Source: Corynebacterium suedekumii (GTDB lineage Bacteria > Actinomycetota > Actinomycetes > Mycobacteriales > Mycobacteriaceae). Taken from it: 64,000 nt of DNA. The notes under the pieces were generated by a model that saw nothing but the letters and a program-made list of their open reading frames with translations, did not search any database and had not been told where the DNA came from. A program made the translations under genes and the position numbers. Below are positions 24,311 to 59,030 of this stretch, piece by piece. Position 1 is the first letter of the stretch. Every line of letters starts with the position of its first letter. The stretch lies in contig NZ_CP126970.1 of assembly GCF_030252185.1 (NCBI RefSeq), positions 2,294,001 through 2,358,000 of the forward strand, written 5' to 3'.

Positions 24311-26931
24311 TCAGGAGGCTGCGAAGCCGAGCCGCTCGCGCTCGGCGGCGATGATCTCCGCGGCCAGCTGCCTCTCGGTGACGTCGACGGCGTCGTGGAC
24401 GGACGCGGATTCCGAGGGCCGCGCGTAGGCGTCGAAGATCGCCGACTTCCCGGCGAGCATCTCGAGCATGCGCTCGTCGACGGTGTCATCGGCCACCAGG
24501 CGGTGGACCAGGACGGTGGAGGTCTGCCCCATCCGGTGGACCCGGGCGATGGCCTGCGCCTCGATCGACGGCTTGACCTGTGGTTCGACGAGGATGACCA
24601 CAGACGCCGTCTGGATGTTCAGGCCCGTGCCGCCGGCGGTGATCTGGGCGAGCAGGACGGAGCCGCCCGGGGCCTTACCGAGCGCGTCGATGAGCTCCTG
24701 ACGCTGGTTCGGGGACACCGCCCCGGAGACGGTGCCCACGACCCGATCCCCCAGTGCCCGTTCGAGGACGCCCAGGACGTCGAGGAAGTAGGTGAACACG
24801 AGCACCCGCCGGTCTGACTCGGCGGCCTCCTCGACGATCTCCATGATCCGCTCGAGTTTCGCCGGCACCGCGTCAGGCGTGGTCATGGGGGCCCGGCGCA
24901 TGGCCATGAAGTTCCCGGCCTCGACCGCCTCGGCGTAATGCGCCTGATCCGCCTCCGTGAGGTCGATCCAGTCGAGCTGGTCGAGTTTCTCGGGCAGCTC
25001 ATCGAGGACGTCGGCCTGGTTACGCCGCAGGTAGGCCGGCGCGACCCGGACGCGGAAATCCTCCGCCGACATCGACTCCATCCCCGCGACCAGCAGATCG
25101 GGTGCGACGTAACTGACCAACGTGGCGAACTCCGCGACCCGGTTCTCCAGCGGCGTACCGGTCATGAGGAGGGCGTGGGAGGCGGCGTCGATGAGCGCGC
25201 GGCACGCCCTCGTCCGGGCGGCGGCCGGGTTCTTGATCATGTGCGCCTCATCCACCACGACAAACTCCGGGGTGGGCAGGTCCATGGTGCGGGCACCGTC
25301 ATAGGTGACCACGCAGATACCACCCGTGTCCTCCCAGGCCCGGACGGCGTCCTCCTTGCCGTCCCCGTGCGCCTTGTACACCGGCAGATCGGTGAAGCGC
25401 CGGGACTCGCGCACCCAGTTGGTGACCACGGACGCGGGACAGACCACCAGGGTCCGCCCACCGAGGTGGGCCGCGACGGCCAACGCCTGGACCGTCTTGC
25501 CCAGGCCCATCTCGTCGCCGAGGATCACCTTCTCCTGGACGATCGTGAAACGCGCGCCGAAGGACTGGTACCCGCGCAGGTGCAGGTCCGTCAGGTGCGT
25601 CTGGTCCAGTCGCAGGGCCCGGATGCGTTCGAGGACGTCGGCGGCGAGGTCGTCGCCACCCTCCACCTCCAGGTCGAGCAGCGTGGCCAACAGCCCCTGG
25701 TAGTGGGCGGGCCGGGCGAGATAGTCCGACCAGGTGTCCTCACCGAGAGTGACCGGCCGGGCGGGGGCGAGCACCGCCGGATGGGCGTGGGCCCAGTCGA
25801 TGTCGTCGATGAACCGGTCCCACCCGACCCGGCTGCCGCTGAGGCCGACCGCCCAGGGCTCAACCCCGCCCACCGCCGGAATGGTCTCCGCGTACCCCAG
25901 GATGCGCCGCCGGCGGGCGCGCTCGACCTCGTCGAGGGTGTTGATGTGGTCGAAGCTGGCCAACACCCGGACCAGGGCGGTCGCGGCGGCGGTCGGAGTG
26001 TCACCGATACCGTGCGTGTGGGTGGCCACGGCCTCCTGCCGCAGGGCTTCAGCCGCGGCCTTGAGGCGTCGGGCCGTCTGCTCACCGATGCCCTGGACCT
26101 GGGTCAGCAGACCGACCGGGGCGGCGAGCACGTCCGCCACCGTGTTCACCCGAACCTGATCGAGGCCGCTGAACCGCAGTCGTTCATTGGTGGCCGTCTT
26201 CAGGGCCTCCACCGGCAACTGGGCGAGCAGCACCCCAGCACGCTCAGCGGTGAGCGCATCCAACTGCCGCTCCGCCGCCAGCCGCAGCGCCGGCTCAGAA
26301 TGCGGATCATCGCGCAGACGTCGGGCCGCGGCGAGGACCTGGTGCAGGCGGGTGGGATCGTAGGTCTCGAACACCAGCGATGACCCCACCGCCTGCTCCA
26401 CCGCTTCTCTGGCAGCGTCGATGAGCCGGTCCGGAGTGCCATGCGGACCAGCAAACAGATGCACACCCCGCTGCTGCAGCGCCGAGGCGGCATGAGCCAG
26501 TTCGACGTACCCACGGGCATCCGAGAACAGAGCATCCATCCCCGGGTCAGCCAGCCGCCCCCGCAGCTCCTCCGCCGCGCGCTGCGCCTGCTCCACCTTC
26601 GCCCCACCGAAGATGCGACCAAGAAACCCGGAGCAGCGTCACGGGCCCGGGAACGCACCATCGCCACCGTCCCGGCCCGGGCCAGAAACTCCCCCAGCCG
26701 CTCCCGGGCACCCGGCAGGCCGTCGAGTTCGGACGTGGCATAGAGCGACGGCGGGAACACCGTCGCCCCGGGAATGATGAGGTGGGCGGAGCCGTCCTCA
26801 TCGGCGATGGTGAGAACGCCGCGGACGGTGGCCGGGGCGGCGTCGAGAAGCGCGCGGGCGGAAGGAACGATCTCGAGGACACGGTCGGCCTGCTGGAGCA
26901 GGTACCGCAGCTCGTCACGGGAAACGGCCAT
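24311..26931 (-). pseudogene. SNF2-type DEAD/DEAH helicase, broken by a one-base frameshift
   Basis: The two open frames join into one helicase of about 873 residues if one base is restored near 26627-26629. The first ~101 codons (ATG 26931) read through RDAAPGF. Restoring one G gives PGFLGRIFGGAK and continues into the rest. Beyond that: a helix-hairpin-helix (LTQVQGIGEQTARRL), SNF2 motif I DEMGLGKT, motif II DEAH in VVDEAHMIKN, motif III MTGTPLEN and motif VI QAIARVHRMGQ. As given, translation from the true start ends early; the C-terminal frame alone (from 26596) lacks the N-terminus. A natural mutation or a sequencing error fits equally. It is divergent from the HEPN-CBS gene. Confidence 0.8.
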
Positions 26932-26939
26932 GACCGAAA

Positions 26940-26949
26940 AGTCTACGCT
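26940..26949. promoter_or_regulatory. Shared bidirectional -10 for two leaderless genes
   Basis: On the minus strand TAGACT (26945-26940) ends 8 nt before the helicase ATG at 26931. On the plus strand TACGCT (26944-26949) ends 6 nt before the HEPN-CBS GTG at 26956. The two hexamers share the TA at 26944-26945. With only 24 bp between start codons there is no room for separate leaders, so both mRNAs are predicted to be leaderless and to start from one symmetrical promoter. Confidence 0.6.
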
Positions 26950-26955
26950 GGAGAC

Positions 26956-27678
26956 GTGACTGACAATCGGGCAATCCCCTTCCTGGCCGCCTTCAACGAC
27001 ATCGAATCACACCTCCGGGAGACCCTCGGCGCGAAGAAGACCGACAGCTTCCGGTGGATGGTGGACCAGGCCAACAAACGCCACCTCATCTCCGAGGACC
27101 AGGCCGCCGATCTACGAGAGTTCGGTGACCTCCGCAATGCCATCAGCCACGGCCGCTACACCGACGACCTGCGCCCCATCGCCGAACCACTCCCGGAAAC
27201 CGTCGCCGAGATCGAGCACATCCGCGACATCCTCCGCGATCCCCCGTTGGCGCTCACCGTCCTCGGGCCACAGGAGGTGCGCACCTTCTCCCCCACCGCA
27301 CCGATCGGCACCGTGCTCGCGGTCATCCGGGACACCGAGATCAGCCAGTTCCCCGTCTACGACAACGGACGATCGGTGGACCTGCTCACCACCAACACCA
27401 TCGCCCGTTGGGTCGCCGCAGATCTGGACGACAACGACCATCTCGACGCCCGTTCCGTGGCAGAGGTCCTGCGCTACGCCGAATCAACGGACCGGGCGGT
27501 GTTCCTGCCCCGGGACGTCACCGCCCAGGCGGCGCTGGATGCCATGACCACGCCCGGGAAGGACGGATCGCTGCCGCGGGCGGGACTGATCACGGAGGAC
27601 GGCCGGAAGGATCAGCGCCCGATCCGGGTGATCGGCGGCTCCGACATCGCCCGGCTGATGGAGGCGGTGGACTCCTGA
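26956..27678 (+). CDS. HEPN-like domain fused to CBS-pair region
   Basis: 240 residues, cytoplasmic. Residues ~5-90 are helical and carry RNAISH (Arg60-Asn61...His65), the R-x4-6-H signature of HEPN domains, which are often RNases or nucleotidyl-transfer partners. Residues ~100-240 look like a CBS pair (TFSPTAPIGTVLAVIRD then QFPVYDNG), usually an adenine-nucleotide sensor. Chosen start GTG at 26956 is positioned for a leaderless mRNA. The divergent helicase suggests a functional pair, but no role is known. Confidence 0.65.
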   Translation: MTDNRAIPFLAAFNDIESHLRETLGAKKTDSFRWMVDQANKRHLISEDQAADLREFGDLRNAISHGRYTDDLRPIAEPLPETVAEIEHIRDILRDPPLALTVLGPQEVRTFSPTAPIGTVLAVIRDTEISQFPVYDNGRSVDLLTTNTIARWVAADLDDNDHLDARSVAEVLRYAESTDRAVFLPRDVTAQAALDAMTTPGKDGSLPRAGLITEDGRKDQRPIRVIGGSDIARLMEAVDS

Positions 27679-27713
27679 ACGACGGGGCCGAGGGAGGTGG
27701 GCCCAGGAGCAGG

Positions 27714-27886
27714 TTCTTTCGTTCTTTTCGTTTCCCTTCCATTCTCGCTGGTCAGGAGCCCATCCCAGGGGCAGGGCGATTCGAAAAAATCGAAAGCCTC
27801 GGGGTTCTTTCGTTCCTTTCGTTTCCACCCCTTCCTTGAAAGCGCCCTGACCTGCACGTTCTGGATCAGATCGAAAAAGACGAAAA
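27714..27886. repeat. Two tandem degenerate inverted-repeat units in a 320-bp spacer
   Basis: The gap 27679-27998 has no gene. It holds two ~90-bp units. Each opens with a pyrimidine arm (CTTTCGTTCTTTTCG at 27716-27730; CTTTCGTTCCTTTCG at 27807-27821) and closes with a purine arm (CGAAAAAATCGAAAG at 27782-27796; CGAAAAAGACGAAAA at 27872-27886). The arms pair 13/15 in the first unit and 11/15 in the second, with ~50-nt loops, and cross-pairing between units is possible. The composition is clearly AT-richer than the flanks. Function unknown. Confidence 0.7.
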
Positions 27887-27936
27887 TTCTCCCCTCGCCG
27901 CACACCCCACGGCGGACCGACCGAGCGGAACCCTCC

Positions 27937-27966
27937 TTGACACATTGTTGACATGTCACATACAGT
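27937..27966 (+). promoter_or_regulatory. Strong sigma-A-type promoter of the luciferase-like/FMN reductase operon
   Basis: A consensus TTGACA (27937-27942), an 18-nt spacer and TACAGT (27961-27966) give an expected start near 27973. The leader ends in AAAGGAG 6 nt before the ATG at 27999. It is the best -35 match in the window. Confidence 0.75.
27946..27960. promoter_or_regulatory. Operator-like palindrome inside the promoter spacer
   Basis: TGTTGACATGTCACA contains the perfect palindrome TGACATGTCA and is symmetric over all 15 bp except one base pair. It fills the space between -35 and -10, where a bound repressor would block polymerase. The cognate regulator is not encoded nearby. Confidence 0.55.
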
Positions 27967-27998
27967 GTGGGCATTAGCAACCCACAAAGGAGTTAACA

Positions 27999-29117
27999 AT
28001 GCAGTTCGGCATCTTCACCATCGGTGACGTCACGCAGGATCCGACAACCGGCAAGACCCCGACCGAGAATGAGCGGATCAAGGCCACCGTCGCCATCGCC
28101 AAGAAGGCCGAGGAGGTCGGCCTCGACGTCTTCGCCACCGGCGAGCACCACAACCCGCCCTTCGTCGCCCCCGGCACCCCACCTGTGCTGCTGGCCAACA
28201 TAGCGGCCCAGACCGAACGTCTCCAGCTGTCCACCGCCACCACGCTGATCACCACCAATGACCCGGTGAAGATCGCCGAGGATTACGCCTACCTCCAGCA
28301 CCTGGCCGACGGCCGGGTGGACCTCATGATGGGCCGTGGCAACACCGGTCCGGTGTACCCGTGGTTCGGCAAGGACATCCGCCAGGGCATTCCACTGGCG
28401 ATCGAGAACTATCATCTGCTGCGCCGGCTGTGGCGTGAGCCGGTGGTCAACTGGCAGGGCCAGTTCCGTACTCCGCTGCAAGGGTACACCTCCACTCCGG
28501 CCCCGCTCGACGGTGTTCCGCCGTTCGTGTGGCACGGTTCCATTCGTTCCGTGCAGATTGCCGAGCAGGCCGCGTTCTACGGTGACGGCTTCTTCCACAA
28601 CAACATCTTCTGGAACAAGGAGCACACGGCGAAGATGGTGGAGATCTACCGTCGTCGTTACGAGTCCTACGGTCACGGCCAGGCGGACCAGGCCATCGTG
28701 GGTCTCGGTGGCCAGGTGTTCATCGGTGCGACGGAGGAGGAGGCGAAGGAGACCTTCCGCCCCTACTTCGACAATGCTCCGGTGTACGGCCACGGCCCGT
28801 CGATGGAGGAGTTCACCGACATGACGCCGCTGACGGTGGGCACGGTGGAGCAGGTCATCGACCGCACTATGGAGTTCGCGGACTGGGTGGGCGACTACCA
28901 GCGTCAGCTCTTCCTCATCGACCACGCCGGCCTGCCGCTGGAGATGGTGCTCGAGCAGATCGAGATTCTGGGCACCCAGGTCGTGCCGGAGCTGCGTACC
29001 CGCATGGAGGCGCGTCGCCCCGATCACGTCCCGTCCGACCCGCCGACCCACGCGTCGTTGAAGAACACCCCGGATTCCCCGCACTTCAAGGTGCGCCCGG
29101 TGGAAGAGGAGGCGTAG
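27999..29117 (+). CDS. Luciferase-like flavin-dependent monooxygenase, CE1758 family
   Basis: 372-residue TIM-barrel FMN-dependent oxidoreductase of the bacterial luciferase superfamily, as judged from MQFGIFTIGDV, the GEHHNPPF segment and the ADGRVDLMMGRGNTGP region. It forms with the next gene the pair known as CE1758/CE1759 in corynebacteria: a monooxygenase and its own FMN reductase. The substrate is unknown. ATG at 27999 has an AAAGGAG ribosome site, and the strong promoter above suggests regulated high expression. The stop is immediately followed by the reductase start. Confidence 0.87.
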   Translation: MQFGIFTIGDVTQDPTTGKTPTENERIKATVAIAKKAEEVGLDVFATGEHHNPPFVAPGTPPVLLANIAAQTERLQLSTATTLITTNDPVKIAEDYAYLQHLADGRVDLMMGRGNTGPVYPWFGKDIRQGIPLAIENYHLLRRLWREPVVNWQGQFRTPLQGYTSTPAPLDGVPPFVWHGSIRSVQIAEQAAFYGDGFFHNNIFWNKEHTAKMVEIYRRRYESYGHGQADQAIVGLGGQVFIGATEEEAKETFRPYFDNAPVYGHGPSMEEFTDMTPLTVGTVEQVIDRTMEFADWVGDYQRQLFLIDHAGLPLEMVLEQIEILGTQVVPELRTRMEARRPDHVPSDPPTHASLKNTPDSPHFKVRPVEEEA

Positions 29118-29780
29118 GTGCGTACTCTCACCGTCATCTCCTCCGGCCTGTCCACTCCGTCCACCACCCGCCGGGTGGCCGACTCCATCGCAGCGGCGGT
29201 CACCGCCGCGGTCTCCGCCCGCGGGGAGTCCCTGGAGGTGGAGGTCATCGAGCTGCGTGAGCTGGTCAATGACCTCGGTCGCTCGCTGACCACCGGCATG
29301 TCCTCCCCCGCCCTCGATGAGGTGAAGGCGAAGGTCTCCGCCTCCGACGGCCTGGTCGTGGTCACTCCGGTGTTCAAGGCGAGCTATTCGGGCCTGTTCA
29401 AGACGTTCTTCGACGTGCTCGACCAGGATGCGCTCAACGGCATGCCGGTCATCATCGCGGCGACGGCGGGTACCGCCCGGCATTCGCTGGTCCTGGACTA
29501 CGCGCTGCGTCCGCTGATGACCTACATGCGTGCGTTCGTCGTCCCCACCGGTGTGTTCGCCGCGACCGATGACTTCGGTTCCGAGGACGGTGCCGGCCTG
29601 GAGTCCCGGGTCAACCGTGCCGCGGGTGAGCTCGCCGATCAGATGGTGGCCTCCGCCAGCGTCGGCGGCCTCGGTGGGGTCACCGCCGAGGGCCAGGGTG
29701 TGCGCCGACGCACGGGTGTGGAGCCCGGCGAGGGTTTCGTCGATTTCGCCGCCCTGTTAAAGGGCCACGACGGCCAGTAG
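29118..29780 (+). CDS. NADPH-dependent FMN reductase, CE1759 family
   Basis: 220-residue flavodoxin-fold reductase expected to supply reduced FMN to the adjacent monooxygenase. Visible: N-terminal beta strand and phosphate loop (SSGLSTPSTTRRVADSI), VVVTPVFKASYSGLFKTFFD, and AATAGTARHSL. GTG at 29118 abuts the previous TAG, with GAGGAGG 6-8 nt upstream, so both are one transcript. The C-terminal ~40 residues are Gly/Val-rich and poorly conserved. Confidence 0.85.
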   Translation: MRTLTVISSGLSTPSTTRRVADSIAAAVTAAVSARGESLEVEVIELRELVNDLGRSLTTGMSSPALDEVKAKVSASDGLVVVTPVFKASYSGLFKTFFDVLDQDALNGMPVIIAATAGTARHSLVLDYALRPLMTYMRAFVVPTGVFAATDDFGSEDGAGLESRVNRAAGELADQMVASASVGGLGGVTAEGQGVRRRTGVEPGEGFVDFAALLKGHDGQ

Positions 29781-29790
29781 GCTGGCGGCC

Positions 29791-31146
29791 ATGACCATCA
29801 GCGTCCTGGACCTGTTCAGCGTCGGTATCGGACCCTCCTCCTCCCATACGGTCGGTCCCATGCGGGCCGCCGGCGCCTGGGTGGAGCAGCAGGGTGGCCT
29901 GCCGGACCACGTGGACATCATTCTCCACGGATCACTGGCTGCCACGGGCGCCGGTCACGGCACCGACCGGGCCATTCTTCTCGGTCTCGTCGGGTGGACA
30001 CCGACGACCGTGCCCGCTGACGCGGATCCCCCGCTCGGCGCCCAGATCCCGGCCGCGGGGGAGTTCACCGGCCCAGCCGGGACGATCAGCTATCGGCTGA
30101 CCTTCGACCCGACACCGGTGGCGGAACACCCCAACTGTGTCGCCTTCAACGGCGACCGTTTCTTCTCCGTCGGCGGCGGTTTCATCCTCTCGCAGGCGGA
30201 GTTCGACGCCCGCTCCACCACCGGCCTACCCTCCGGCGCCGCCACCGCCGCCCCGACCGGGGAGGTGCCGTACCCCTTCACGAGCGCGCAGGATCTGCTG
30301 GCCCACTGCGCGCGGGAGAAGCTCACCGTCGCAGAACTGATGCGCCACAACGAGAACGCCCTGCGCCCCGGAGTGGACCAGCACCTCGACGAGGTGTGGA
30401 TGACCATGCGCCAGTGCGTCACCGCCGGCATCGCCACCAGCGGGTTGCTGCCCGGCGGGCTCGGTGTCGTCCGACGCGCGCCGGGCCTGTACGCCCAGCT
30501 CATCGGCCAGTCCGAGGGAAACTACGACGGCGGGCTGGGCGCGATTGAGTGGGTCAATCTCTACGCTCTGGCGGTCAACGAGGAGAATGCGGCCGGCGGG
30601 CGGATCGTCACCGCGCCCACGAACGGTGCGGCCGGGATCATTCCTGCCGTCATGCACTACGCGCGGGACTTCCTGCCCGAGTTCTCCCGGGAAGATGCCC
30701 GGGATTTCCTGCTCGTGGCCGGGGCAATCGGGATCATCATCAAGGAGAACGCCTCGATCTCGGGTGCGGAGGTCGGCTGCCAAGGTGAGGTGGGGTCCGC
30801 TTCCGCGATGGCCGCGGCGGGCCTGTGCGCCATCCTCGGTGGCAGCACGGCTCAGGTCGAGAACGCCGCCGAGATCGCCCTGGAGCACAACCTCGGCCTG
30901 ACCTGTGACCCGGTCGGTGGGCTCGTGCAGATCCCCTGCATCGAGCGCAACGCCATCGGCGCGGTGAAGTCCATCAACGCCGCCCGCCTGGCCCGGCTGG
31001 GCAACGGCACCAACCGGGTCACCCTCGACGAGGTCGTGGCCACGATGGCCGAGACCGGTCGCGACATGATGACCAAGTACAAGGAGACCTCCACCGGAGG
31101 GCTGGCCGTCAACCTCGGCCTGCCCGTCAACATCACGGAGTGCTGA
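29791..31146 (+). CDS. sdaA: L-serine ammonia-lyase, iron-sulfur type
   Basis: Deaminates L-serine to pyruvate. 451 residues in the single-chain form: beta domain at the N-terminus ([18 protein letters not shown]) and alpha domain at the C-terminus. Cys at about 330 ([12 protein letters not shown]), 372 (TCDPVGG) and 382 (QIPCIERN) can ligate the oxygen-labile [4Fe-4S] cluster. It starts 10 nt after the FMN reductase stop with GGC-rich spacing, so read-through transcription is likely, but a metabolic link is not evident. Confidence 0.95.
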
Positions 31147-31147
31147 C

Positions 31148-31489
31148 ATGATCGCCCGCATCGTCATGGCCACCGGTCTCACCACCCTGGGGGTGTTCCA
31201 GGCCGGTCTGGCCCTGGGCCGGCCGTGGGGTGCCGCCTCCTACGGTGGCGCCCATTCCGGGGTCCTGCCCGGTCATCTCCGGCTGAGCAGCGCGGTGGCG
31301 GCACCGGTCTACCTCGGCGTCGCCGCCGCGGTCGGCATCGGCTCCCGGGCCGGCCTGGGGGCGCTGGCCACTGTCATGGCGGTGGCCACCATTCCCAATG
31401 CCCTCTCCCCCGCCCGTGCGGAGAAGGTATGGGCGCCGGTGTGTGCAGCTATCGCGTGGGCGGCGTGGAGCGAAAAGCGTCGTCGATGA
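31148..31489 (+). CDS. Small hypothetical membrane protein
   Basis: 113 residues, mostly hydrophobic, with three or four predicted membrane segments (ARIVMATGLTTLGVFQAGLA, AAPVYLGVAAAVGI, LATVMAVATIPNAL) and a basic C-terminus EKRRR. I do not recognise a family. ATG at 31148 is 1 nt after the sdaA stop, so it is translationally linked to sdaA. Its last 41 bp overlap the convergent glpD 3' end. Confidence 0.6.
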   Translation: MIARIVMATGLTTLGVFQAGLALGRPWGAASYGGAHSGVLPGHLRLSSAVAAPVYLGVAAAVGIGSRAGLGALATVMAVATIPNALSPARAEKVWAPVCAAIAWAAWSEKRRR

Positions 31490-33116
31490 CGGCCGTCTCA
31501 CCGGCCAGCTGAGCCAGGTACGCCTGCGCCTGGCCGTCGCGGGTGGCGTCGTCCCAGCCCAGCAACGGAGCGATGGTGCCCGCCACCTGATTCACGGCCT
31601 GCTCGGAGACCAATCCGAGGGTGCCCACGGTCAGCCGCCGGTCGAGGACGTCCGTGAGGTTCTCGGCGGCCTCCTCGGTCACCGCGTACACGGCCTGGGC
31701 GAGGATGTCATCGCTGCCGTCGACGCGCTCAGCCAGCTCCGGATGCTCCGTGACCAGACGCAGGACCTGTTCGTGGGCGGTGCCGTAGAGCCGGGCGAGA
31801 TGGATGCGGGTCTCCCGCGGCAGGCCGGCCTCAGGCCGGCGGGCGGCGGCGGCCTCGAAGGCGGCGGCGACGGTGTCGTAGTCGCCGAAGGAGGTCGACA
31901 GGCCGAGGTGACGGGAGTCGAAGTCGCGGGTCGGTGGCAGCTGGTCGCGCTGTGCCCTGATCACCGTGTCCATGACCTTCTCCCCCATCGCCCGCCCCGT
32001 GGTCCACTTGCCGCCGGTGACGGTGTAGAGGCCGGGCAGCCCGCCGTCGGCGTGGTCGCGGATGTCGAAGCGGCGGGAGGAGGTGTAGGTGTCGGAGCCG
32101 TCGTCGACGAGCGGGCGCACGCCGACGATGGTGGATTCGACGTCCTCCCGGGTCAGCGGCGTCGCGGAGACGGAGTCGATGGTCTCGCGCAGCAGGTTGA
32201 TGTCGTCGACGTCGGCGACGGCGTCGTCGGCGCTGCCCGCCATCGCGGTGTCCGTCGGCCCGACGAGGGTCTTGCCCTCCCAGGGGTTGACCACGATGTG
32301 GCGTCCGTTGCGCCCGCGCACGAACACGCCGTCGCGCCCGCCCAGGTCACGGGTGACCAGGTGGACGCCCTTGGCCTGCTTCACCCGGACGCCGGCGGGT
32401 TCGGCGAGATCGCCGAGGGCGGCGGCGACCCACGGGCCCGCGGCGTTGATGACCACGGTGGCCTCGATGTCGGTGTCGCCGGTGACCTGCACGCCGCGGA
32501 CGGTGCCGGCGGCGTCGCGGAGCAGACCGGTGACCGGCGCATGGTTGACGGCGGTGCCGGCGTCGGCGACGAAGCTCTGCAGAATGGCCAACAGGAGGCG
32601 CTCGGGGTGGATGTTGAGGGTGTCGTCGTGGCGCCACGCACCGGTCAAGCCCTCGGGGGTGAGCCACGGAACCTGCTTGAGTAGCGCCTTCTTGCCCACC
32701 CAACGGAAGCGGGGCGAGCGGATGTCCTTGGGCACGCCGACGTTGCGGCGCAGGGCCATCGCCTCGTAGAGGGCGACTCCCGCACCGAGGACCGGTGCCG
32801 GAGGAGCGGACCAGTCATAGGCGGTGAGCAGGAAACTGCGCGGCTGCACAAGGTGCGGGGCGGCGAGGCCGAGATAGCGGCGTTCGCTCACGGACTCGGC
32901 GACGACGCCGAAGTCGTACTGCTCGAGGTAGCGCAGGCCGCCGTGGATGGCCTTGGTGGTGGCGGCGGAGGTGCCGGAGCCGAAGTCGTCGCGTTCGAAC
33001 AGGACGGTGCGCAGGCCACGTCCGGCGGCGTGGCGGGCGATCTGGACGCCGGAGATGCCGCCGCCGATGACGGCGACATCATAACGCCCGCTGACGGGCT
33101 GGCCGAGGACGCTCAC
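31449..33116 (-). CDS. glpD: Glycerol-3-phosphate dehydrogenase (FAD, membrane-associated)
   Basis: Oxidises glycerol 3-phosphate to DHAP and passes electrons to menaquinone. 555 residues: FAD-binding VIGGGISGVQIARHAAGRG, then GSGTSAATTKAIHGGLRYLE, the AAGPWV segment and a C-terminal helical cap. GTG at 33116 overlaps the mtnC stop by 4 bp (GTGA), placing it last in an operon of a sugar kinase, mtnD and mtnC. No glycerol kinase or facilitator is present here. Confidence 0.95.
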   Translation of the reverse strand: MSVLGQPVSGRYDVAVIGGGISGVQIARHAAGRGLRTVLFERDDFGSGTSAATTKAIHGGLRYLEQYDFGVVAESVSERRYLGLAAPHLVQPRSFLLTAYDWSAPPAPVLGAGVALYEAMALRRNVGVPKDIRSPRFRWVGKKALLKQVPWLTPEGLTGAWRHDDTLNIHPERLLLAILQSFVADAGTAVNHAPVTGLLRDAAGTVRGVQVTGDTDIEATVVINAAGPWVAAALGDLAEPAGVRVKQAKGVHLVTRDLGGRDGVFVRGRNGRHIVVNPWEGKTLVGPTDTAMAGSADDAVADVDDINLLRETIDSVSATPLTREDVESTIVGVRPLVDDGSDTYTSSRRFDIRDHADGGLPGLYTVTGGKWTTGRAMGEKVMDTVIRAQRDQLPPTRDFDSRHLGLSTSFGDYDTVAAAFEAAAARRPEAGLPRETRIHLARLYGTAHEQVLRLVTEHPELAERVDGSDDILAQAVYAVTEEAAENLTDVLDRRLTVGTLGLVSEQAVNQVAGTIAPLLGWDDATRDGQAQAYLAQLAGETAVIDDAFRSTPPTR

Positions 33117-33823
33117 CGGAACTCCACCTCGTCGAAGGAGGCGATCTCGGGGTGCTCGCCCACGCCGCGGTCGAAGTACTGGTCGCCCTCGCGGCGCACG
33201 CCGACGGTGCCCCAGCCGTCCGCACGGGCCGCGTCGAGTTCCTCGACGAGGTCGGAGAAGAACAGCAGCTGCTCCGCCGGCACCCCGATCTCCTCGCGGA
33301 TGGTGGCGTAGGAGGCGGCGAGTTTCTTCGGGCCGACGTTCTCGGTGTCGAAGTGGCCGGAGAACAGCGGCAGCAGGTCCCCGTCGGGGGTGTTGCCGAA
33401 CCAGGAGGTCTGCGCGTTGACAGAGCCGGAGGAGAAGATCTGCAGCCCGATGCCCTGCTCGTGCCAGCGCCGGATCGCGGGAATCGCGTCCGGGTAGAAG
33501 TGCGAGGTCAGCTCCCCTGCCGCGAAACCCTCCGCCCAGATCAGACCCTGCAGGGTCTTCAGCGGTGTGCGTTTCTCGTCGTTGTCCAGCCAGCCCTCGA
33601 GGGCCGCGACGAGCTTCTCGACGCCCGCGTCCCCCGCCAGTCCCGCCTCCTCGACGATCTGCGTGCGGGCGCGTTCGACGTCCGGGTGCCGGTCACGGCG
33701 CGACAGGATCGCGGCGAAACGCTCCCGGGAGTAGGGGTAGAGGGTGTCGTGGACGAACCACGTCGAGGACGTGGTGCCCTCGATGTCGAGGACGATGACG
33801 CTGGGGCGGGGCAGGGTGATCAT
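33113..33823 (-). CDS. mtnC: Acireductone synthase (enolase-phosphatase E1)
   Basis: Methionine salvage: converts 2,3-diketo-5-methylthiopentyl-1-phosphate to acireductone. 236-residue HAD enzyme: motif I VLDIEGTTSS (Asp and Glu typical of E1), motif II FSSGS, Lys in VGPKKLAAS, and motif IV FFSDLVEELDAA. ATG at 33823 has GGAAAG upstream and lies just behind the restored mtnD stop at 33829, consistent with coupling. Confidence 0.92.
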   Translation of the reverse strand: MITLPRPSVIVLDIEGTTSSTWFVHDTLYPYSRERFAAILSRRDRHPDVERARTQIVEEAGLAGDAGVEKLVAALEGWLDNDEKRTPLKTLQGLIWAEGFAAGELTSHFYPDAIPAIRRWHEQGIGLQIFSSGSVNAQTSWFGNTPDGDLLPLFSGHFDTENVGPKKLAASYATIREEIGVPAEQLLFFSDLVEELDAARADGWGTVGVRREGDQYFDRGVGEHPEIASFDEVEFR

Positions 33824-33828
33824 GGGTG

Positions 33829-34403
33829 CTACTTTCCGGCGATGAGTTCGTCGTGGCCGGGGAAGGAGGCGGAGATCTTCTCCCTGTGAAGTCGCCGACC
33901 CAGCCCTCGCCGTCATGGAAGAAGCGGATGGCGCAGAACTGCGGGTCATTGACCCCCATGTCGAACCAGTGGGTGGCTCCCTCGGGGACGGAGAGCAGGT
34001 CGCCGGCCTCGCAGACGACACCGTAGACGGTGTCGTCGATGTGCAGGTAGAAGGTGCCGGAGCCCTCGACGAAGAAGCGGACCTCGTCGTCGGCGTGGGT
34101 GTGTTCGTCGAGGAACTTCTCCCGGGCACCCTTCGCCGTGGCGGCGAAGTCGGGCTGGCCGGTGTCGCGGAGGCGGGCGACGTCGACGGTGACGAAGTTC
34201 TCCTCCTCGCTGATCCTGCGCACCTCCTCGGCGTAGGCGGCGAGGACGGCGTCCTGGTCGGCGTCGTCGGCGAGCTCCTTGGTGGCCCACCGGTCGTAGC
34301 GCACGCCCAGGGTCTGCAGTTCGGCGGCGATCTCGGTGGGGTTGTCGGTGCGCAGCAGTTCGACGTCGGGGGCGGTGGCGTTCCACTTGTACAGCAGGGT
34401 CAT
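33829..34403 (-). CDS. mtnD: Acireductone dioxygenase, frameshifted near its 3' end
   Basis: Oxidises acireductone to the keto acid precursor of methionine plus formate. The cupin is intact: metal ligands in EHTHADDE (His, His, Glu) and the distal His in EGATHWFDMG. About 20 residues before the expected end, a G run at 33882-33884 appears one base short. Restoring it gives FTGEKISASFPGHDE and a TAG at 33829-33831. As given, the frame instead runs on to 33693 inside mtnC with a foreign Pro/Ser tail. The catalytic core should survive in either case. ATG at 34403, 10 nt after the kinase stop. Confidence 0.85.
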
Positions 34404-34413
34404 GGTGTTTCTC

Positions 34414-35955: not shown

Positions 35956-36125
35956 GCGTGCTCCTTGGTCCCTGGGGGAGGTCAATGATCCGTCCACGCT
36001 AACAGCAGCAATGGTGTCACCAGAACTTCCCCGGAGATTATTATTCAGCCGGCCCGGATGAGAGTTTCCTCAGACGACCGCTGCCACGGTTGCCGGCGAC
36101 CGATAGGTGGACAACAGTGGCGGGC

Positions 36126-38608: not shown

Positions 38609-38611
38609 TGC

Positions 38612-48245: not shown

Positions 48246-48303
48246 GCTGTCCTGCCTTCGTGCTGGAGGGATATGTGAAGTTCTCAGTATACGACGGCAG
48301 ACG

Positions 48304-51246: not shown

Positions 51247-51366
51247 TGAGGTAGCTCCTCCGGGAACAGGCCCTCGACTGGGGGCTGATGTGAGGCCAAG
51301 AATGTGCGTTGCCGCCGACGATGGGGATCGCGGCGGCTTGCGGTCGAACTCGTCGAACAACCGACC

Positions 51367-51372
51367 ATGCTA
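51367..51372 (-). promoter_or_regulatory. Candidate -10 for secDF in the yajC-secD gap
   Basis: TAGCAT fits TAnnnT. A start near 51360 would give secDF its own mRNA with a ~114-nt leader before the TTG at 51246. The 221-nt interval between yajC and that TTG holds no other gene. Confidence 0.4.
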
Positions 51373-51467
51373 CGTCATGGCACCGGGTGGGTCCGAGTCC
51401 GACCCGGACAAGTCCAGCTGGCTGTCCGGTCCACCGGGTTCACCGCCGGCCAGCGCGACGACCTCCG

Positions 51468-51872
51468 TCAGCGGTTGTCCGGGCGCCCGCCGTCGGGGTG
51501 GTTCTCCGGGTGATCATCGTCCACCGGGTACTCGGGGTGCCGGTAACCGGTCTCGTCGGAGCCGGCCGGGGCGGTGCCCAGGGGGTCCGCGGTCGGGGTC
51601 GCGGTGCCGAGGTCCTGCGGGGTGGCCTTACGGAGGATGGCGATGCGGTCCATGGTCACGTCCACGGACGGTGCGATCTCGACGGTGATCTGGTCACCCT
51701 GCTCACCGGTGATGGTGCCGTGGATGCCGGAGACGGTGACCACGCGGTCACCGATGCCGACGGAGGCCTGCATGTTCTGCAGCTCGGCCTGGCGGCGACG
51801 CTGGGAGCGCATCATGAAGAAGGACGGCAGGATGAACACGGCCATGATGAGAAGGAGAAGAATGAGATCCAT
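51468..51872 (-). CDS. yajC: Preprotein translocase subunit YajC
   Basis: Small accessory of SecDF. 134 residues: one N-terminal membrane segment (LILLLLIMAVFILPSFFMM), a conserved basic strip RSQRRRQAE, the YajC core (VGIGDRVVTVSGIHGTI), then a ~45-residue Pro/Asp/Thr tail unusual in length. It lies 29 nt after ruvB. Confidence 0.92.
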   Translation of the reverse strand: MDLILLLLIMAVFILPSFFMMRSQRRRQAELQNMQASVGIGDRVVTVSGIHGTITGEQGDQITVEIAPSVDVTMDRIAILRKATPQDLGTATPTADPLGTAPAGSDETGYRHPEYPVDDDHPENHPDGGRPDNR

Positions 51873-51901
51873 GGTGGTTCAGTCTGCCAGACGGCCCCGG
51901 A

Positions 51902-52951
51902 TCAGTGCAGACCCAGGGTCCCGTCGGGTGGCGTGAGCCCGAGGTGGTGCCAGGCGGCGGCGGTGGCGACCCGGCCGCGTCCGGTGCGGGCGATGAGGCC
52001 GGCGCGGACGAGGTAGGGTTCGCACACCTCCTCGACGGTGGTGGACTCCTCCCCCACTGCGACGGCGAGGGTGTTCACACCCACGGGCCCGCCGCCGTGT
52101 CCGCGGATGAGCGCGCTGAGGACGGCACGGTCGAGGCGGTCGAGGCCGGCCTCGTCGACGTCGAAGACCTCGAGGGCTCCCCGGGCGGCGGCCATGTCGA
52201 TGTGACCGTCGGCGTTGACCTCCGCGAAGTCGCGCACCCGGCGCAGTAGCCGGTTGGCGATGCGGGGTGTGCCCCGCGAGCGGGAGGCGATCTCGACGGC
52301 GGCGTCATGGTCGATGCTCACACCGAGAATCGTCGCCGCGCGGGTGACCACGCGGGTGAGGTCGGTGACGTCGTAGAACTCCATCTGGGCAGTGAATCCG
52401 AAGCGGTCGCGCAGCGGGCCGGTGAGCATGCCCGAGCGGGTGGTCGCGGCGACGAGGGTGAACGGGGGGATCTCCAGTGGGATGGAGGTGGCGCCGGGAC
52501 CCTTGCCCACGATGACGTCGATTCGGAAGTCCTCCATCGCCATGTAGAGCATCTCCTCCGCCGGGCGGGCGATGCGGTGGATCTCGTCGATGAACAGGAC
52601 GTCGCCCTCCATGAGGTTCGACAGCATCGCGGCGAGGTCACCCGCCCGTTCGAGCGCGGGCCCGGACGTCATGCGCAGGTTCGTGTTCAGTTCCTGCGCG
52701 ATGATCATGGCCATGGTCGTCTTGCCCAGGCCGGGCGGGCCGGACAGCAGGACGTGGTCGGGGGTGACCCCCCGGTTCTTCGCGCCGGTGAGCACGAGGG
52801 AGAGCTGGCTGCGGACCTTCTGCTGGCCGATGAACTCGTCGAGGCTGCGCGGGCGCAGCGTCGTCTCCGCGTCCTGTTCGCCGGCCTGCAGGCGAGTGTC
52901 CACCACGTCCCGCTCGGGCAGCTGGAACTCGGTGCGCTCCACGTCAGACAT
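51902..52951 (-). CDS. ruvB: Holliday junction branch migration helicase RuvB
   Basis: AAA+ motor of the RuvAB complex. 349 residues: Walker [10 protein letters not shown], Walker B LFIDEIHR, sensor ATTRSG, arginine finger region RDRFG, and winged-helix C-terminus. ATG at 52951, 12 nt after ruvA. Confidence 0.97.
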
Positions 52952-52963
52952 GTGCCCGCTCCC

Positions 52964-53566
52964 CTACTTCCGGCCGAGCTGGCTCAGGGCGGCGCGCAGC
53001 GCGGCGGCCGTGTCCAGTTCCGGGTTGTCGGTGAGCACGCCCTCGACGACGGGGACGGCGACCCGGTCGGTGAATCCGAGGCCCATGAGTGCCTCGGTGA
53101 CCTGGTCGGCGACGCCGGCGGCGGCGATCGGCAGCGGCGTCGTCGTGGGGACCTCGGCCGGCGTGTAGGCGGCGACCTTGTCCCGCAGTTCCAGGACGAG
53201 GCGTTCGGCCATACGTTTGCCCACCCCGGGGATCCGCTGCAGCGCCTTGGCGTCCTCCCCGGCGATGGCCTGGGAGATCTCCCCGGCGTTCATCACCGAC
53301 AGGGAGGCCACCGCGAGGCGCGGGCCCAGGCCGGTGACGGTCTGCAGGAGGTGGAACATCCCGCGGTCCTCGTCGGAGACGAAGCCGTAGAGGGTCATCG
53401 CGTCCTCCTTGACCGCGAGGTAGGTCAGGACGGTCGCGTCCTCGCCCCGGGTCAGGGTGGCCAACGTCCCCGGGGTCGCCTCCACGCGGTAGCCCACCCC
53501 GGCGCATTCGATGACCGCGTGATCGAGGCCGAGGGAGATGACGGTGCCGCGCAGCGAGGCGATCAT
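52964..53566 (-). CDS. ruvA: Holliday junction branch migration protein RuvA
   Basis: Binds four-way junctions as a tetramer. 200 residues: OB domain ([12 protein letters not shown]), tandem helix-hairpin-helix ([10 protein letters not shown] and [13 protein letters not shown]), and C-terminal RuvB-binding domain ([12 protein letters not shown]). ATG at 53566 with AAAGGA overlaps the ruvC stop by 4 bp. Confidence 0.96.
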
Positions 53567-54108
53567 GGGCGGGTCCTTTCGGTGGAGGATTCCAGCAGGG
53601 CGCCGGTCCGGGCCAGCAGGGGTGCGCGCCAGCAGTGGCACACGGCCAGGGCGAGGGCGTCGGCGGCGTCGGCCGGCTTCGGGGGTTCGGACAGCCCGAG
53701 GATCCGGGTGATCATGGTGGTCATCTGTTTCTTGTCCGCACGCCCGTTGCCGGAGACGGCCTTCTTGACCTCCGACGGGGTGTACATGTGCACCGGGATG
53801 TCGCGCTGGGCCGCCCCCAGGACGAGGACGCCGACGGCGTGGGCGGTGTGCATGACGGTGGAGACGTTGCCACGCTCGAACACGCGCTCGATGGCGACGA
53901 CGTCGGGCTGGTAGTCATCCATCCAGTCGTTGACGGCGGCCGAAAGCCGCTTGAGGCGTTCCGCCAGTTCGGCACCGGCCGGGGTGCGGACGACGCCCAC
54001 CGCGACGGGCAGGACCGCCCGACCGCGACCGGCCTGGACGACGGAGAGCCCGCACCGGGTCAGACCCGGGTCGATGCCCATCACCCGCAGGTTCTCCAGA
54101 CTGTTCAC
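53563..54108 (-). CDS. ruvC: Holliday junction resolvase RuvC
   Basis: Dimeric endonuclease resolving junctions. 181 residues: Asp in GIDPGLT, Glu in AIERVF, Asp in [12 protein letters not shown] chose GTG at 54108: it yields [13 protein letters not shown] and a TATACC box lies exactly 7 nt upstream, the leaderless arrangement. An internal ATG at 54081 is an alternative. First gene of ruvC-ruvA-ruvB-yajC. Confidence 0.93.
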
Positions 54109-54115
54109 ACACCCA

Positions 54116-54121
54116 GGTATA
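54116..54121 (-). promoter_or_regulatory. Candidate -10 for leaderless ruvC mRNA
   Basis: TATACC (54121-54116) ends 7 nt before the ruvC GTG at 54108. No LexA-type SOS box is apparent in the short yebC-ruvC gap (54109-54139). Confidence 0.45.
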
Positions 54122-54139
54122 GCACACGTGTCCGAAAGA

Positions 54140-54886
54140 TCAGAGCTGTGCCAGGACCTCGTCGGCGACGTCGGCGTTGGTGTAGACGTTCTGCACGTCG
54201 TCGGAGTCCTCCAGCGCGTCGATGAGACGGAACACCTTCTTCGCGTCCTCGAGCTCCAGCGGCACCTCGACCGTGGCGCGGAAATCCTGATCGGAGTCGT
54301 CGACCTCGATACCGGCGTCCTCGAGAGCCTCCCGGACGGTGGCGATGTCGGTCGGGGCGCAGACGATCTCGAACTTCTCGCCCAGGTCGTTGACCTCCTC
54401 GGCGCCGGCCTCGAGGACGGCCATGAGCACGTCGTCCTCGGTGAGCTCACCCTTGTCCACGACGACGATGCCGGTGCGGGTGAACATGTAGGCCACGGAG
54501 CCGGACTCGCCGAGGTTGCCGCCGTTGCGCGACATGGCGGTGCGGACCTCGGTGGCGGCGCGGTTGCGGTTGTCGGTGAGGCACTCGATGAGCATGGCCA
54601 CACCGTTGGGGCCGTACCCCTCGTAGGTGATGGTCTCCCAGTCGGCGCCGCCGGCCTCCTCACCGGAGCCGCGCTTGCGGGCGCGCTCGATGTTGTCGTT
54701 GGGGACCGAGGCCTTCTTGGCCTTCTTGATCATGTCGTCGAGCGTCGGGTTGGCCGCGGGGTCGCCGCCACCCTGCCGGGCCGCGACCTCGATGTTCTTG
54801 ATCATCTTCGCGAATTCTTTGCCACGCTTGGCGTCGTTCGCGGCCTTCTTGTGCTTGGTGGTCGCCCACTTGGAATGGCCTGCCAT
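54140..54886 (-). CDS. YebC/PmpR family transcription or translation factor
   Basis: 248 residues of the YebC family; recent work links this family to translation of difficult sequences besides DNA binding. The N-terminus [22 protein letters not shown] (first 19 shown in part) is diagnostic, and GTGES-like and acidic C-terminal regions follow. ATG at 54886 lies 8 nt behind GAAAGG. A GTG two codons upstream is possible. It is upstream of ruvCAB in the usual order. Confidence 0.93.
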
Positions 54887-54977
54887 GTTCACTACCTTTC
54901 ATCGGTCCGCGTGCTCGACCCCTCTGTGGGGAGCACGGCGACGTTTTTGACTCGCTCCACTATACGCAGCGTGCGGC

Positions 54978-55832
54978 TCAGTCCTCGGGGCGACGCGAGG
55001 GGACGGACTGGGCACCCTCGCGCAGCGTGCGGGTGAGCCCCTCCTGGGTGACCATGGCGACGAGGTTGCCGGCCCGGTCGAAGATCCGCCCGTGGGTCAG
55101 TGCCCGGCCCGCGGAGGCGGACGGGGAGACCTGGTCGTAGAGCAGCCACTCGTCGGTGCGGAAGGGCCTCAGGAACCACATGGCGTGGTCGAGGCTGGCC
55201 ATCTGCACCTTGTGCCCGGGGTGCGGGACCAGCGAGGAGTGCAGCAGTGTCATGTCGGACATGTAGGCCAGGGTGCACACGTGCAGGGTCTCGTCATCCG
55301 GCAGGGGGCGCTTCGAACGGAACCACACCACCTGCTGGCTCGGGGTGTACGGGTTGTGCTCGTAGCGGTCGGAGGGCACGACCCGGATGTCCCAGTCGCC
55401 CCACTCCTCCAGCAGGGCCCGGGAGCTGACGGGCATGGTCGACGGGTCGACCGGCAGGGTCTCCGGGTCCGGGACGTCGCGCATGAGGTCGGAGTGCTCG
55501 GGCCCGACGTCCCCGCGCCGGTGGAAGCTGGCCTGCATGGAGAAGATGGTCTCGCCGTCCTGGATGGCACGGACCTGGCGGGAGGAGAAACTCCGGCCGT
55601 CCCGGATCGGGTCGACGAGGTAGACGGTGGGTTGGTCCGCCTTGCCGGGGGCCACGAAGTAGCCGTGCAGGGAGTGGACGGCCTTGTCCGTGATCGTCTC
55701 GGTGGCGGCCACCAGCGCCTGGGCGGCGACCTGCCCGCCGAAGGTGCGGGTGAGCGCCGACTCCACCGGATCACCCCGGAAGATGAGTTCGTCGATCCGC
55801 TCGAGGCTGAGGATCTGTTCAATCGTGCTCAC
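54978..55832 (-). CDS. tesB: Acyl-CoA thioesterase II
   Basis: Double-hotdog thioesterase of 284 residues that hydrolyses acyl-CoA in the cytoplasm. Features: N-terminal hotdog (RTFGGQVAAQALVAA, HSLHGYFVAPG), C-terminal hotdog with ASLDHAMWFLRPFRTDEW holding the catalytic Asp, and a terminal VTQEGLTRTLR. It likely recycles CoA from fatty acids. Start at 55832. Confidence 0.93.
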   Translation of the reverse strand: MSTIEQILSLERIDELIFRGDPVESALTRTFGGQVAAQALVAATETITDKAVHSLHGYFVAPGKADQPTVYLVDPIRDGRSFSSRQVRAIQDGETIFSMQASFHRRGDVGPEHSDLMRDVPDPETLPVDPSTMPVSSRALLEEWGDWDIRVVPSDRYEHNPYTPSQQVVWFRSKRPLPDDETLHVCTLAYMSDMTLLHSSLVPHPGHKVQMASLDHAMWFLRPFRTDEWLLYDQVSPSASAGRALTHGRIFDRAGNLVAMVTQEGLTRTLREGAQSVPSRRPED

Positions 55833-55875
55833 GCGTGTTCTCCTTACCGGTTCACCGTCTGTCGAGTCTAGCCAC

Positions 55876-55881
55876 TAGCAT
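55876..55881 (+). promoter_or_regulatory. Candidate -10 for a leaderless DUF3817 mRNA
   Basis: TAGCAT ends 8 nt before the ATG at 55890; no Shine-Dalgarno is present. Confidence 0.45.
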
Positions 55882-55889
55882 GTCCACCC

Positions 55890-56357
55890 ATGACACCGAA
55901 GAATCTTCACCGGCTCGCCGCCGCCACCGAGATGGTCACCTGGACACTGCTCATCCTGGGGATGATCCTCAAGTACTCGGGCACGACGGACGCGCTCATG
56001 CCCGTCGCCGGCGGGGTCCACGGCTTCGGTTTCCTCTGCTTCGTCGCCATCACCGTCCTGCTGTGGGTGAACAACCGGTGGTCCTTCGGGCACGGCGTGC
56101 TCGGTCTGTTCGTCTCCGTTGTCCCGTGGGCCGCGTGGCCGTTCACCATGTGGGCGGACCGGCGGGGTCTGCTCGAGGGCGGCTGGCGTTTCCGTGGCAC
56201 CGATGAGCAGCCGACGTCGCTGCCGGACAAGGTGCTGGCCCAGTTCGTCCGTCATCCCGCCCGCTCCATCGCGGTGCTCGCGGTGGTCATCGTCATCGTG
56301 TTCATCGCCCTGCTCACCATGGGCCAGCCCTACGACCCTGAGGCGATCACCGGATGA
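55890..56357 (+). CDS. DUF3817 membrane protein
   Basis: 155 residues with four membrane segments (MVTWTLLILGMILKYSG, GFGFLCFVAITVLLWVN, VLGLFVSVVPWAAWPFTMW, SIAVLAVVIVIVFIALLTM). The first three form the DUF3817 domain found near envelope genes. Function unknown. The stop overlaps the next start by 4 bp (ATGA), so it is co-translated with the GT87 enzyme and may belong to the same glycolipid process. Confidence 0.78.
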   Translation: MTPKNLHRLAAATEMVTWTLLILGMILKYSGTTDALMPVAGGVHGFGFLCFVAITVLLWVNNRWSFGHGVLGLFVSVVPWAAWPFTMWADRRGLLEGGWRFRGTDEQPTSLPDKVLAQFVRHPARSIAVLAVVIVIVFIALLTMGQPYDPEAITG

Positions 56358-57580
56358 CGCGCCCGGCGGTGTGGATCGGGTGGCTCATCTCCCGTCTCCT
56401 GCTCTGCTGGCTGATCTGGCGTGACCAGCGTCCCTTCGGGGACGTCCGCTACTACTTCAACGGCGTCACCGGGCTCGACCCGACCGCCCTGACGGAGTAC
56501 CCGGACGCCGGGGTGTGGCCGGTCCGGTTCCTCGCCCTGCTCACCGGCGATTCCTGGGAGACGTTCCGCGTCGGCTTCCTGGTCATGTGCCTGCTTCTCG
56601 ACGCCGCCTTCCTCGCCCTCATCCTCCGCCGCACCGACCGCAGCCGGCTCACCGCCGGCTGGTTCTGGGTGTGCTTCGGCCTCGCCGTGGGGCACGTGTT
56701 CTACCTGCGGCTGGATCTGTTCCCCGGCCTGCTCGTCGCCGCCTTCGGTGCGCTGCTGTTCCACCGTCCCGCCTGGGCGTCGGTGGCGTTGGCGGCGGCC
56801 ACCGTAGTGAAGCTGTGGCCGGGTGTGCTCGCCGCAAGTCTCGTGGGAGGTCTCCGGCGGGCCGGCACCTGGCTGCGGCTGCTCGCGTTCTTCGGCAGCC
56901 TTGCCGCCTTCGCCCTGGTCACGGTGGTCACCTCCGGGGTGGACCGGCTCATCAGCCCACTGACCTACCAGGGTGAGCGGGGCCTGCAGATCGAGTCCCT
57001 GGCGGCCACCCCGTTCATGCTCGACGCCCACCGCAACCCGACCGACTACTGGATCGGCTACTCCTCGTCGAAGAGCTTCGAGATCCACGGGCCCGTTACC
57101 GACGGGGCCGTCACGGCCGTCGACGTGGGCATACTCGTCGTCCTCGGTTTCGCGGTCATCGTCGCCGCGACGATGATGCTCACCGACCGCTGGCATCCCC
57201 GTTCCGCGCTGGCGTTCGCCCTGCTGCTGGTGCTGCTGCTCATCGTCACCAACAAGGTGTTTTCCCCGCAGTATCTCGTGTGGATCGGTCCGCTGCTCGC
57301 CGTGTGCCTGTGCGTCAGCGCCGACTGGCAGGTGCGCGCGATGGCGGTGCTGACCGTCATTGCGGCGGGACTGACCTTCCTCATCTACCCGGTCCATTAC
57401 GACGTCCTCTACCAGGACATCGCCTCCGCAGGACTGCCGCTGACGTTACTGGTCGCGCGGAACGGACTCGTCGTGCTCCTCACCCTGCTGTCCGCCTGGT
57501 GGCTGGGACGAGTGGTGTTCAAAGAACTCGGGCAGCGGGGCTGTCCCGCCGAGCCGCAGCGCGCGCACGGCCGGGCGTAG
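56354..57580 (+). CDS. GT87-family polyprenyl-phosphate mannosyltransferase-like membrane protein
   Basis: 408 residues, about ten membrane segments. The early extracytoplasmic Asp in GDVRYYFNG fits the catalytic Asp of GT-C enzymes of the GT87/DUF2029 family, which move mannose from decaprenyl-phosphate onto PIM, lipomannan or arabinan. Its position opposite the PIM operon supports a glycolipid role, but the acceptor cannot be named. The last 135 bp lie antisense inside the LemA-like gene. Confidence 0.82.
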   Translation: MTRPAVWIGWLISRLLLCWLIWRDQRPFGDVRYYFNGVTGLDPTALTEYPDAGVWPVRFLALLTGDSWETFRVGFLVMCLLLDAAFLALILRRTDRSRLTAGWFWVCFGLAVGHVFYLRLDLFPGLLVAAFGALLFHRPAWASVALAAATVVKLWPGVLAASLVGGLRRAGTWLRLLAFFGSLAAFALVTVVTSGVDRLISPLTYQGERGLQIESLAATPFMLDAHRNPTDYWIGYSSSKSFEIHGPVTDGAVTAVDVGILVVLGFAVIVAATMMLTDRWHPRSALAFALLLVLLLIVTNKVFSPQYLVWIGPLLAVCLCVSADWQVRAMAVLTVIAAGLTFLIYPVHYDVLYQDIASAGLPLTLLVARNGLVVLLTLLSAWWLGRVVFKELGQRGCPAEPQRAHGRA

Positions 57581-57952
57581 CCGCAGCGCCCGGGTGTCGG
57601 CGACGGCCTCGTTGTAGAAGCGGTGGGCCAGCTGGACGCGTACCTCCGCGTCGACGAGCTGGACCGGTCGATGAGGCCCGAGCGCCTCGATGGCCTGGGA
57701 GATCTGCCGCTCCCGCACGGCCCGGGCCTCGAGCCGGCCGTGGTCGAGGGCGTGGTTCTCCGCGGCGACGGCCAGCGGCATCGCCTCCGGTTCTACCACC
57801 GCGAGGACGGCCGCCCGCCGGTCGAGCGCGGCCTGCAGGGCGGCGAGCGCCGAGTCGGTGCGGATGTGCAGACGGTTGAGCCGCTGCGCGGTGAAGTAGG
57901 CCCACAGGGCGATCGCCGTGATGATGACGGCGGCGAGGATGTACCAGATCAC
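57446..57952 (-). CDS. LemA-like membrane protein
   Basis: 168 residues: N-terminal membrane helix (WYILAAVIITAIALWAYF), then a helical part ending in QLAHRFYNEAVADTRALRLR, which is the LemA signature region, and LGGTAPLPEFFE. Role unknown. It starts within the pimA stop (4-bp overlap) and so is the last gene of the PIM operon. Its C-terminal ~29 residues past LPEFFE are encoded inside the 3' end of the convergent GT87 gene and may be an extension through a lost stop. Confidence 0.65.
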   Translation of the reverse strand: MIWYILAAVIITAIALWAYFTAQRLNRLHIRTDSALAALQAALDRRAAVLAVVEPEAMPLAVAAENHALDHGRLEARAVRERQISQAIEALGPHRPVQLVDAEVRVQLAHRFYNEAVADTRALRLRPAVRALRLGGTAPLPEFFEHHSSQPPGGQQGEEHDESVPRDQ

Positions 57953-59030
57953 CGGTCCACCTCCACGGTCGTGCCGTCGGCGACGGTCTCATAGACGGTG
58001 AGCACGTCGCGGGCCACGCTCTGCCAGTCATACCGGCGGGCACGTTCGGTGCCGGCGGCGACGAGCCGGGCGCGGGCGGCGGGGGCGTCGATAAGCGACT
58101 GCAGCGCCGCGGCGAGTGCCGACGCCGAGCCCGTCTCGAAGAGCAGGCCCGCGTCGTCGCAGACGGCGGCGAAGGCCTCGAGGTCACTGGCGACGACCGC
58201 GCAGCCCGCCGCCATCGCCTCCACCAGCACGATGCCGAAGCTCTCACCGCCGGTGTTGGGGGCGACGTAGATGTCGGCGCGGCCGAGGATGAGGGCCTTG
58301 ACCTCGTCGCTCACCCGCCCGACGAACTCCACCCCGGGTGCGTGGCGCGGGCGGCCGCCGCCGATGACGGTGACCCGGATGTCGCGGTCGACGAGGCGGA
58401 GGGCGTCGAGAAGAATGTCCAGTCCCTTGCGGGAGTCGTCGAGGCGGCCGAGGAAGACGATCTCCACCGGCCCCGACTTTTGGTCCTCCGGCACACGGGA
58501 CGCGGCGTAGCGGGAGGTGTCCACCCCGTTGGGGATGAGCACCGGGTCGCCGCCGAGCTGCTCGACCTGCCAGCGGCGCGCCATCTCGGAGACCGCGATC
58601 CCGCCGCGGATCTTCTCCAGGGCCGGGCGCAGCAGCGGGCGGGTCAGCGCCAGCATTCGCGAGCCGGCGCTCGAGGCGTGGTAGGTGGCCACGATGGGCC
58701 CCGACGCCATCCACAACGCCGCCATGGAGTAGCTCGGCGAGTTGGGTTCGTGGATGTGGAGGAGGTCGAATCTCCCTGACCGATGAACTCGCGGATCTTC
58801 GTGCGCACGTGCGGGCCGATGGACAGCCGGGCGACAGAACCGTTGTAGCGCACCGGCACGCTCCGGCCGCCCCGGGTGACGAAGCCGGGCAGCTCCGTGT
58901 CCGCCGACGCCGGCCCGAGGACGCCGACATGGTGGCCGGAATCGATGAGCACCTGCGCAAGGTCAAGGATGTGGGCTTGAACTCCGCCGGGTTCATCGAA
59001 GGAGTAGGGGCAGACGATACCGACGCGCAT
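57949..59030 (-). pseudogene. pimA: Phosphatidylinositol mannosyltransferase PimA, one-base frameshift
   Basis: GT4 enzyme adding the first mannose to phosphatidyl-inositol at the inner membrane face. The N-terminal part (MRVGIVCPYSFDEPGGVQAH) reads to about residue 94 (EFIGQG), and the frame then moves. Adding one G to the run at 58774-58776 gives GRFDLLHIHEPNSPSYSMAAL and joins the rest, including GESFGIVLVEAMA (EX7E motif). Restored length is ~360 residues, as expected. Loss of PimA would be costly for this lineage, so a sequencing error is more likely than a true null. ATG at 59030 overlaps patA by 1 nt. Confidence 0.88.

Follow-up and report, generated by a model that had tools for sequence, protein, structure and literature searches.

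In phase-variable homopolymer tracts, the reading frame of a gene is set by the length of a G or C run. The frame breaks described here likewise depend on G/C run length, but the runs are much shorter and core genes are hit. Residual homopolymer indels accompanied by frameshifts are a known error type of long-read-only assemblies (PMC8812927). The record analysed here resembles such assemblies in having many indels per genome, mostly in homopolymers, with apparent frameshifts as their consequence; unlike there, half of the localised losses in our case carry a CTCCC/GGGAG core. Motif-bound nanopore errors caused by DNA modification have also been described, consisting chiefly of mismatches at GCAGC and GCTGG in Listeria (PMC10687267). 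The present errors are similarly tied to a short motif, but they are one-base losses, seen in the sequence alone, rather than the mismatches that dominate there.

The window, a stretch of 64 kb, belongs to a genome assembled as one contig (2,858,263 bases, 2.86 Mb), of which it covers bases 2,294,001-2,358,000. It has a G+C content of 69%, and its nearest named matches are from Corynebacterium. Three of its minus-strand genes, a helicase gene, mtnD and pimA, are each split into two pieces read in different frames (coordinates relative to the window):

24311..26931, minus strand: gene of an SNF2-family helicase, split between two frames (beginning at 26931; the later piece is the open frame 24311-26596)
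26618..26634, minus strand: credible span of the helicase frame break (frameshift-aware alignment to P0121 and P0122)
33829..34403, minus strand: mtnD, acireductone dioxygenase, in two frames (Pfam ARD; ab initio gene 33828-34403)
33874..33887, minus strand: credible span of the mtnD frame break (frameshift-aware alignment to P0241 and P0242)
57949..59030, minus strand: pimA-like gene for a glycosyltransferase, split between two frames (the later piece has matches to Pfam glycosyl transferase families)
58768..58781, minus strand: credible span of the pimA frame break (alignment to P0001, and also a blind scan with the relative G019 as reference)

Full-length proteins at 99-100% identity are known for all three genes, namely P0121 (873 aa) for the helicase, P0241 (191 aa) for mtnD and P0001 (360 aa) for pimA. 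No single frame of the window encodes any of them, and they were taken as near-identical records; the longest contigs listed for P0001, P0121 and P0241 measure 3910, 4009 and 6236 bases, none of them a chromosome. Their identity to the window suggests that they come from the same species. For the helicase, the piece 26200-26931 agrees with P0121 at 104/104 positions over residues 1-104, and the piece 24311-26596, which carries the Pfam domains SNF2-rel_dom and Helicase_C, matches residues 113-873 at 757/761; at the DNA level, the gene is 78% identical to its counterpart in G019 and 76% to that in G029. In mtnD, whose end was placed from the 191-aa length of P0241, a 174-aa piece shows 100% identity to that protein and the frame is lost near the end, and in pimA, residues 1-86 of P0001 are matched at 86/86 and a 258-aa piece at 100%. 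The original prediction that each gene is broken by one missing base was thus borne out against full-length relatives. It had also proposed that a G4 run was read as G3 in all three, which holds for mtnD and pimA, where a GGG is the sole G/C run of at least three bases in the break span. The helicase break, however, could not be pinned to its GGG: the span contains runs of GGG and TTT as well as a GG pair, which the intact protein cannot tell apart, the top weight (0.32) falls at 26622, and positions 26627-26629 are one of several allowed places.

A count of such breaks along the genome, set against relatives, had been proposed as a check. We scanned the chromosome with an ab initio coding model that allows frameshift steps, using three samples of 400 kb each: A1 (2,130,001-2,530,000, with the window inside), A2 (1,730,001-2,130,000) and A3 (twenty 20-kb stretches distributed over 20,001-1,674,000). 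The yardsticks were two relatives only, both of the same genus, G019 (2,681,312 bases) and G029 (2,721,150 bases), of each of which 800 kb were scanned. At the strict setting (a cost of 22 nats and a distance of at least 90 bases to any gene end), 60 internal breaks were called in 1.2 Mb (24 in A1, 17 in A2 and 19 in A3) against 2 in G019 and 2 in G029. The coding signal picks up again past each break. This density of approximately one break per 20 kb amounts to about 3.2 per 64 kb and, extrapolated, to some 140 per genome; three breaks in 64 kb are ordinary for this genome, and the window is not special. By type, the strict calls comprise 43 missing-base and 17 extra-base breaks, and the ratio varies along the chromosome (22:2 in A1, 11:6 in A2 and 10:9 in A3). 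The error type is therefore not uniform, since in A3 extra-base breaks (9) are nearly as numerous as missing-base ones (10).

Looser settings proved less discriminating. At a cost of 14, a first scan called 38 breaks in A1 and 24 in G019, several of the G019 ones near gene ends, and at a cost of 11 the internal missing-base calls numbered 43, 47 and 36 in A1, A2 and A3 (400 kb each) versus 44 in G019 and 36 in G029 (800 kb each). The cost-11 scan is thus noisy, and the counts used here come from the strict setting or from protein-confirmed sites. A two-frame tblastn comparison was likewise discarded: its 48 candidates here and 39 in G019 included many shadow frames, and a codon-usage filter reduced them to 11 and 1, respectively.

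For protein confirmation, the looser-scan candidates of A1+A2 (147, of which 146 were scored), G019 (95, all 95 scored) and G029 (74, 69 scored) were aligned to proteins of relatives, and a site was accepted at a gain of at least 130 and a span of at most 30 bases. In the 800 kb of A1+A2, 39 distinct sites were confirmed, 30 with a missing and 9 with an extra base, against 4 in G019 (3 extra, 1 missing) and none in G029. At a gain of 200, 30 sites remain in A1+A2 and 0 in either relative, and at 60 A1+A2 yields 45 rows, including two repeats, compared with 7 for G019 and 1 for G029. Some of the four G019 candidates above 130 may be overlapping neighbour genes instead of broken ones. Sample A3 rests on the ab initio count, as the G019 and G029 stretches compared seem to be non-orthologous to it, and one A3 site passed 60. 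The figure of 39 is a lower bound, as regards the window too. There, the loose scan made 8 calls, of which protein alignment confirmed pimA only, the sole window site among the 39; mtnD was called and has no orthologue in the G019 and G029 stretches compared, and the helicase break was not called by the loose scan of the window.

The 39 sites correspond to 38 distinct reference proteins, all of them orthologues with single open frames. When 34 of these, some cut at the end of a stretch, were scanned with NCBIfam, 17 scored above a curated cut-off and the other 17 had no match above it. The genes identified in this way encode hydroxyethylthiazole kinase, PafA, SufU, MptB, guanylate kinase, MsrB, LexA, a fructose PTS EIIC component, Dxr, PriA (with two breaks), an ISL3 transposase, SelA, PrmC, AtpA, isochorismate synthase, TyrS and cytidylate kinase (cmk). 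Guanylate kinase, Dxr and cmk are indispensable to life. In a search of the whole genome, each of the three was represented by two neighbouring pieces only, neither above the cut-off, and no further match to any of them was found. Since no living cell should carry a chromosome devoid of these genes, the record must be wrong at gmk, dxr and cmk, and the remaining breaks are most likely record errors as well, by their common pattern. TyrS is a weaker case: its main piece (positions 3-343) lies above the cut-off and its tail is read in a different frame, and the genome has one further, weak match below the cut-off. The ISL3-family transposase gene, with an extra-base break at G000:1,749,288-1,749,295, is the sole broken gene recognised as mobile.

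Taken together, the three breaks of the window are very probably single-base consensus errors in the genome record, members of a larger set with a density of about one per 20 kb, because breaks occur chromosome-wide, three indispensable genes are split without another copy, and near-identical full-length proteins exist. Three traits of an under-polished assembly are present, namely an excess of breaks over relatives, their concentration in homopolymers and the involvement of indispensable single-copy genes. Their likely origin is the base calling or the consensus step of an assembly that was poorly polished and probably based on long reads. A base is lost in most cases and gained in some, chiefly within short G or C runs, with losses several-fold more frequent at G runs that precede AG (CTCCC on the opposite strand). 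The systematic base-calling error first proposed is hence strongly supported in kind; its restriction to G4 read as G3 and to the context TCTCCC(C)TG was too narrow.

The sequence around the breaks bears on both of these specifics. The largest G/C run at the 30 deletions measures 2 bases at 2 sites, 3 at 6, 4 at 15 and 5 at 7, so that a run of 4 or 5 is found at 22/30 deletions, compared with a run of at least 4 in about 15% of random coding windows matched for length. With runs of 2-5 bases and insertions at 9/39 sites, a G4-to-G3 change cannot be extended to all breaks. The eight-base context, in turn, is indeed common to the mtnD and pimA breaks: the two plus-strand copies of TCTCCCTG in the window are those very breaks, and its complement CAGGGAGA occurs there twice more. 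It is not the determinant, however, as only these two of its 64 copies in 800 kb (both strands) lie at a deletion; TCTCCCCTG has 10 copies in 800 kb and 23 in the whole record.

A shorter core, CTCCC/GGGAG, is enriched instead. It is present at 15/30 deletions, where 3.5 are expected from the mean of windows matched for length and run, a value reached in 0 of 2000 draws. The core was first spotted on A1 (11/21 deletions), before A2 was obtained, and A2 as a second sample gave 4/9 against 0.96 expected (13 of 2000 draws). It occurs at 0/9 insertions. Twelve context patterns were counted, of which eight, besides the core and its overlaps, show no clear excess. The overlapping patterns are raised as well, with GGAG/CTCC at 18/30 (8.1 expected), GGGA/TCCC at 19/30 (9.5) and GAG/CTC at 25/30 (17.1), and their excess is weaker in A2 alone, being reached in 89, 437 and 266 of 2000 draws, respectively. 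On the plus strand, CTCCC was found at 9 sites, GGGAG at 5 and both at 1, with no clear preference; on the coding strand, GGGAG was found at 8 and CTCCC at 6. The 800 kb contain 2639 copies of the core, the large majority at no break, and CTCCC/GGGAG thus raises the odds of a base loss without causing a loss every time.

The preference of the breaks for G/C runs is also what slippage would leave behind if the strain were a slippage mutator or decaying and its broken genes were young pseudogenes, and Actinobacteria use mismatch repair without MutS/MutL, which counts in favour of such recent mutations. Guanylate kinase, Dxr and cmk would then all be dead, with no other copy. Moreover, the 30:9 ratio of missing to extra bases runs counter to the bias seen in Mycobacterium smegmatis, a species of another genus that also lacks MutS/MutL, whose mutation lines gave 141 insertions and 66 deletions (PMC4938668). 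We consider real mutations of this kind highly improbable. Phase variation, in which genes would be switched on and off by changes of run length within the population, had been raised in the original prediction together with relaxed C4 runs. A GGG run is indeed present at two window sites, and an eight-base context is common to two, but the runs at deletions span 2-5 bases, no long simple repeat occurs at the breaks, many core genes (atpA, priA and gmk among them) are hit at a density of about one break per 20 kb, and the orthologues of relatives are open; this idea was not upheld, and its probability is close to nil. Hardly any weight can be given either to tolerated or programmed frameshifting, by which slippage of ribosomes at GGGAG/CTCCC would yield whole proteins in spite of the broken frames. 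The core is present at half of the localised deletions and the coding signal resumes after each break, as such slippage would have it; against this, most of the 2639 core copies lie off breaks, no insertion carries the core, the near-identical proteins of full length are predicted from uninterrupted frames, and the relatives are nearly without breaks. Nor is a shift site conserved in the orthologues, the reference orthologues being single open frames.

Within the preferred reading, that of consensus errors, the core bias may reflect plain run-length under-calling with a neighbour effect, or an effect of DNA modification. The deletions do share a short motif beyond run length (15/30 versus 3.5), the trait expected of motif-bound errors. 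It seems rather unlikely that the bias is the footprint of an undescribed Corynebacterium DNA modification disturbing single-molecule base calling; if it were, the errors themselves would map a methylation motif. The CTCCC/GGGAG bias offers a cheap lead to holders of raw data. The record stands for its species, and some 140 genes, by extrapolation, look broken in it and probably are not, indispensable ones included; claims of gene loss resting on this record, for instance of pimA or mtnD, would be wrong.

The comparison with G019 also revealed a difference in gene order. Between positions of approximately 2,170,000-2,260,000 in this genome and 1,340,000-1,410,000 in G019, the orthologues are reversed in both strand and order, and this block seems to be inverted between the two genomes.
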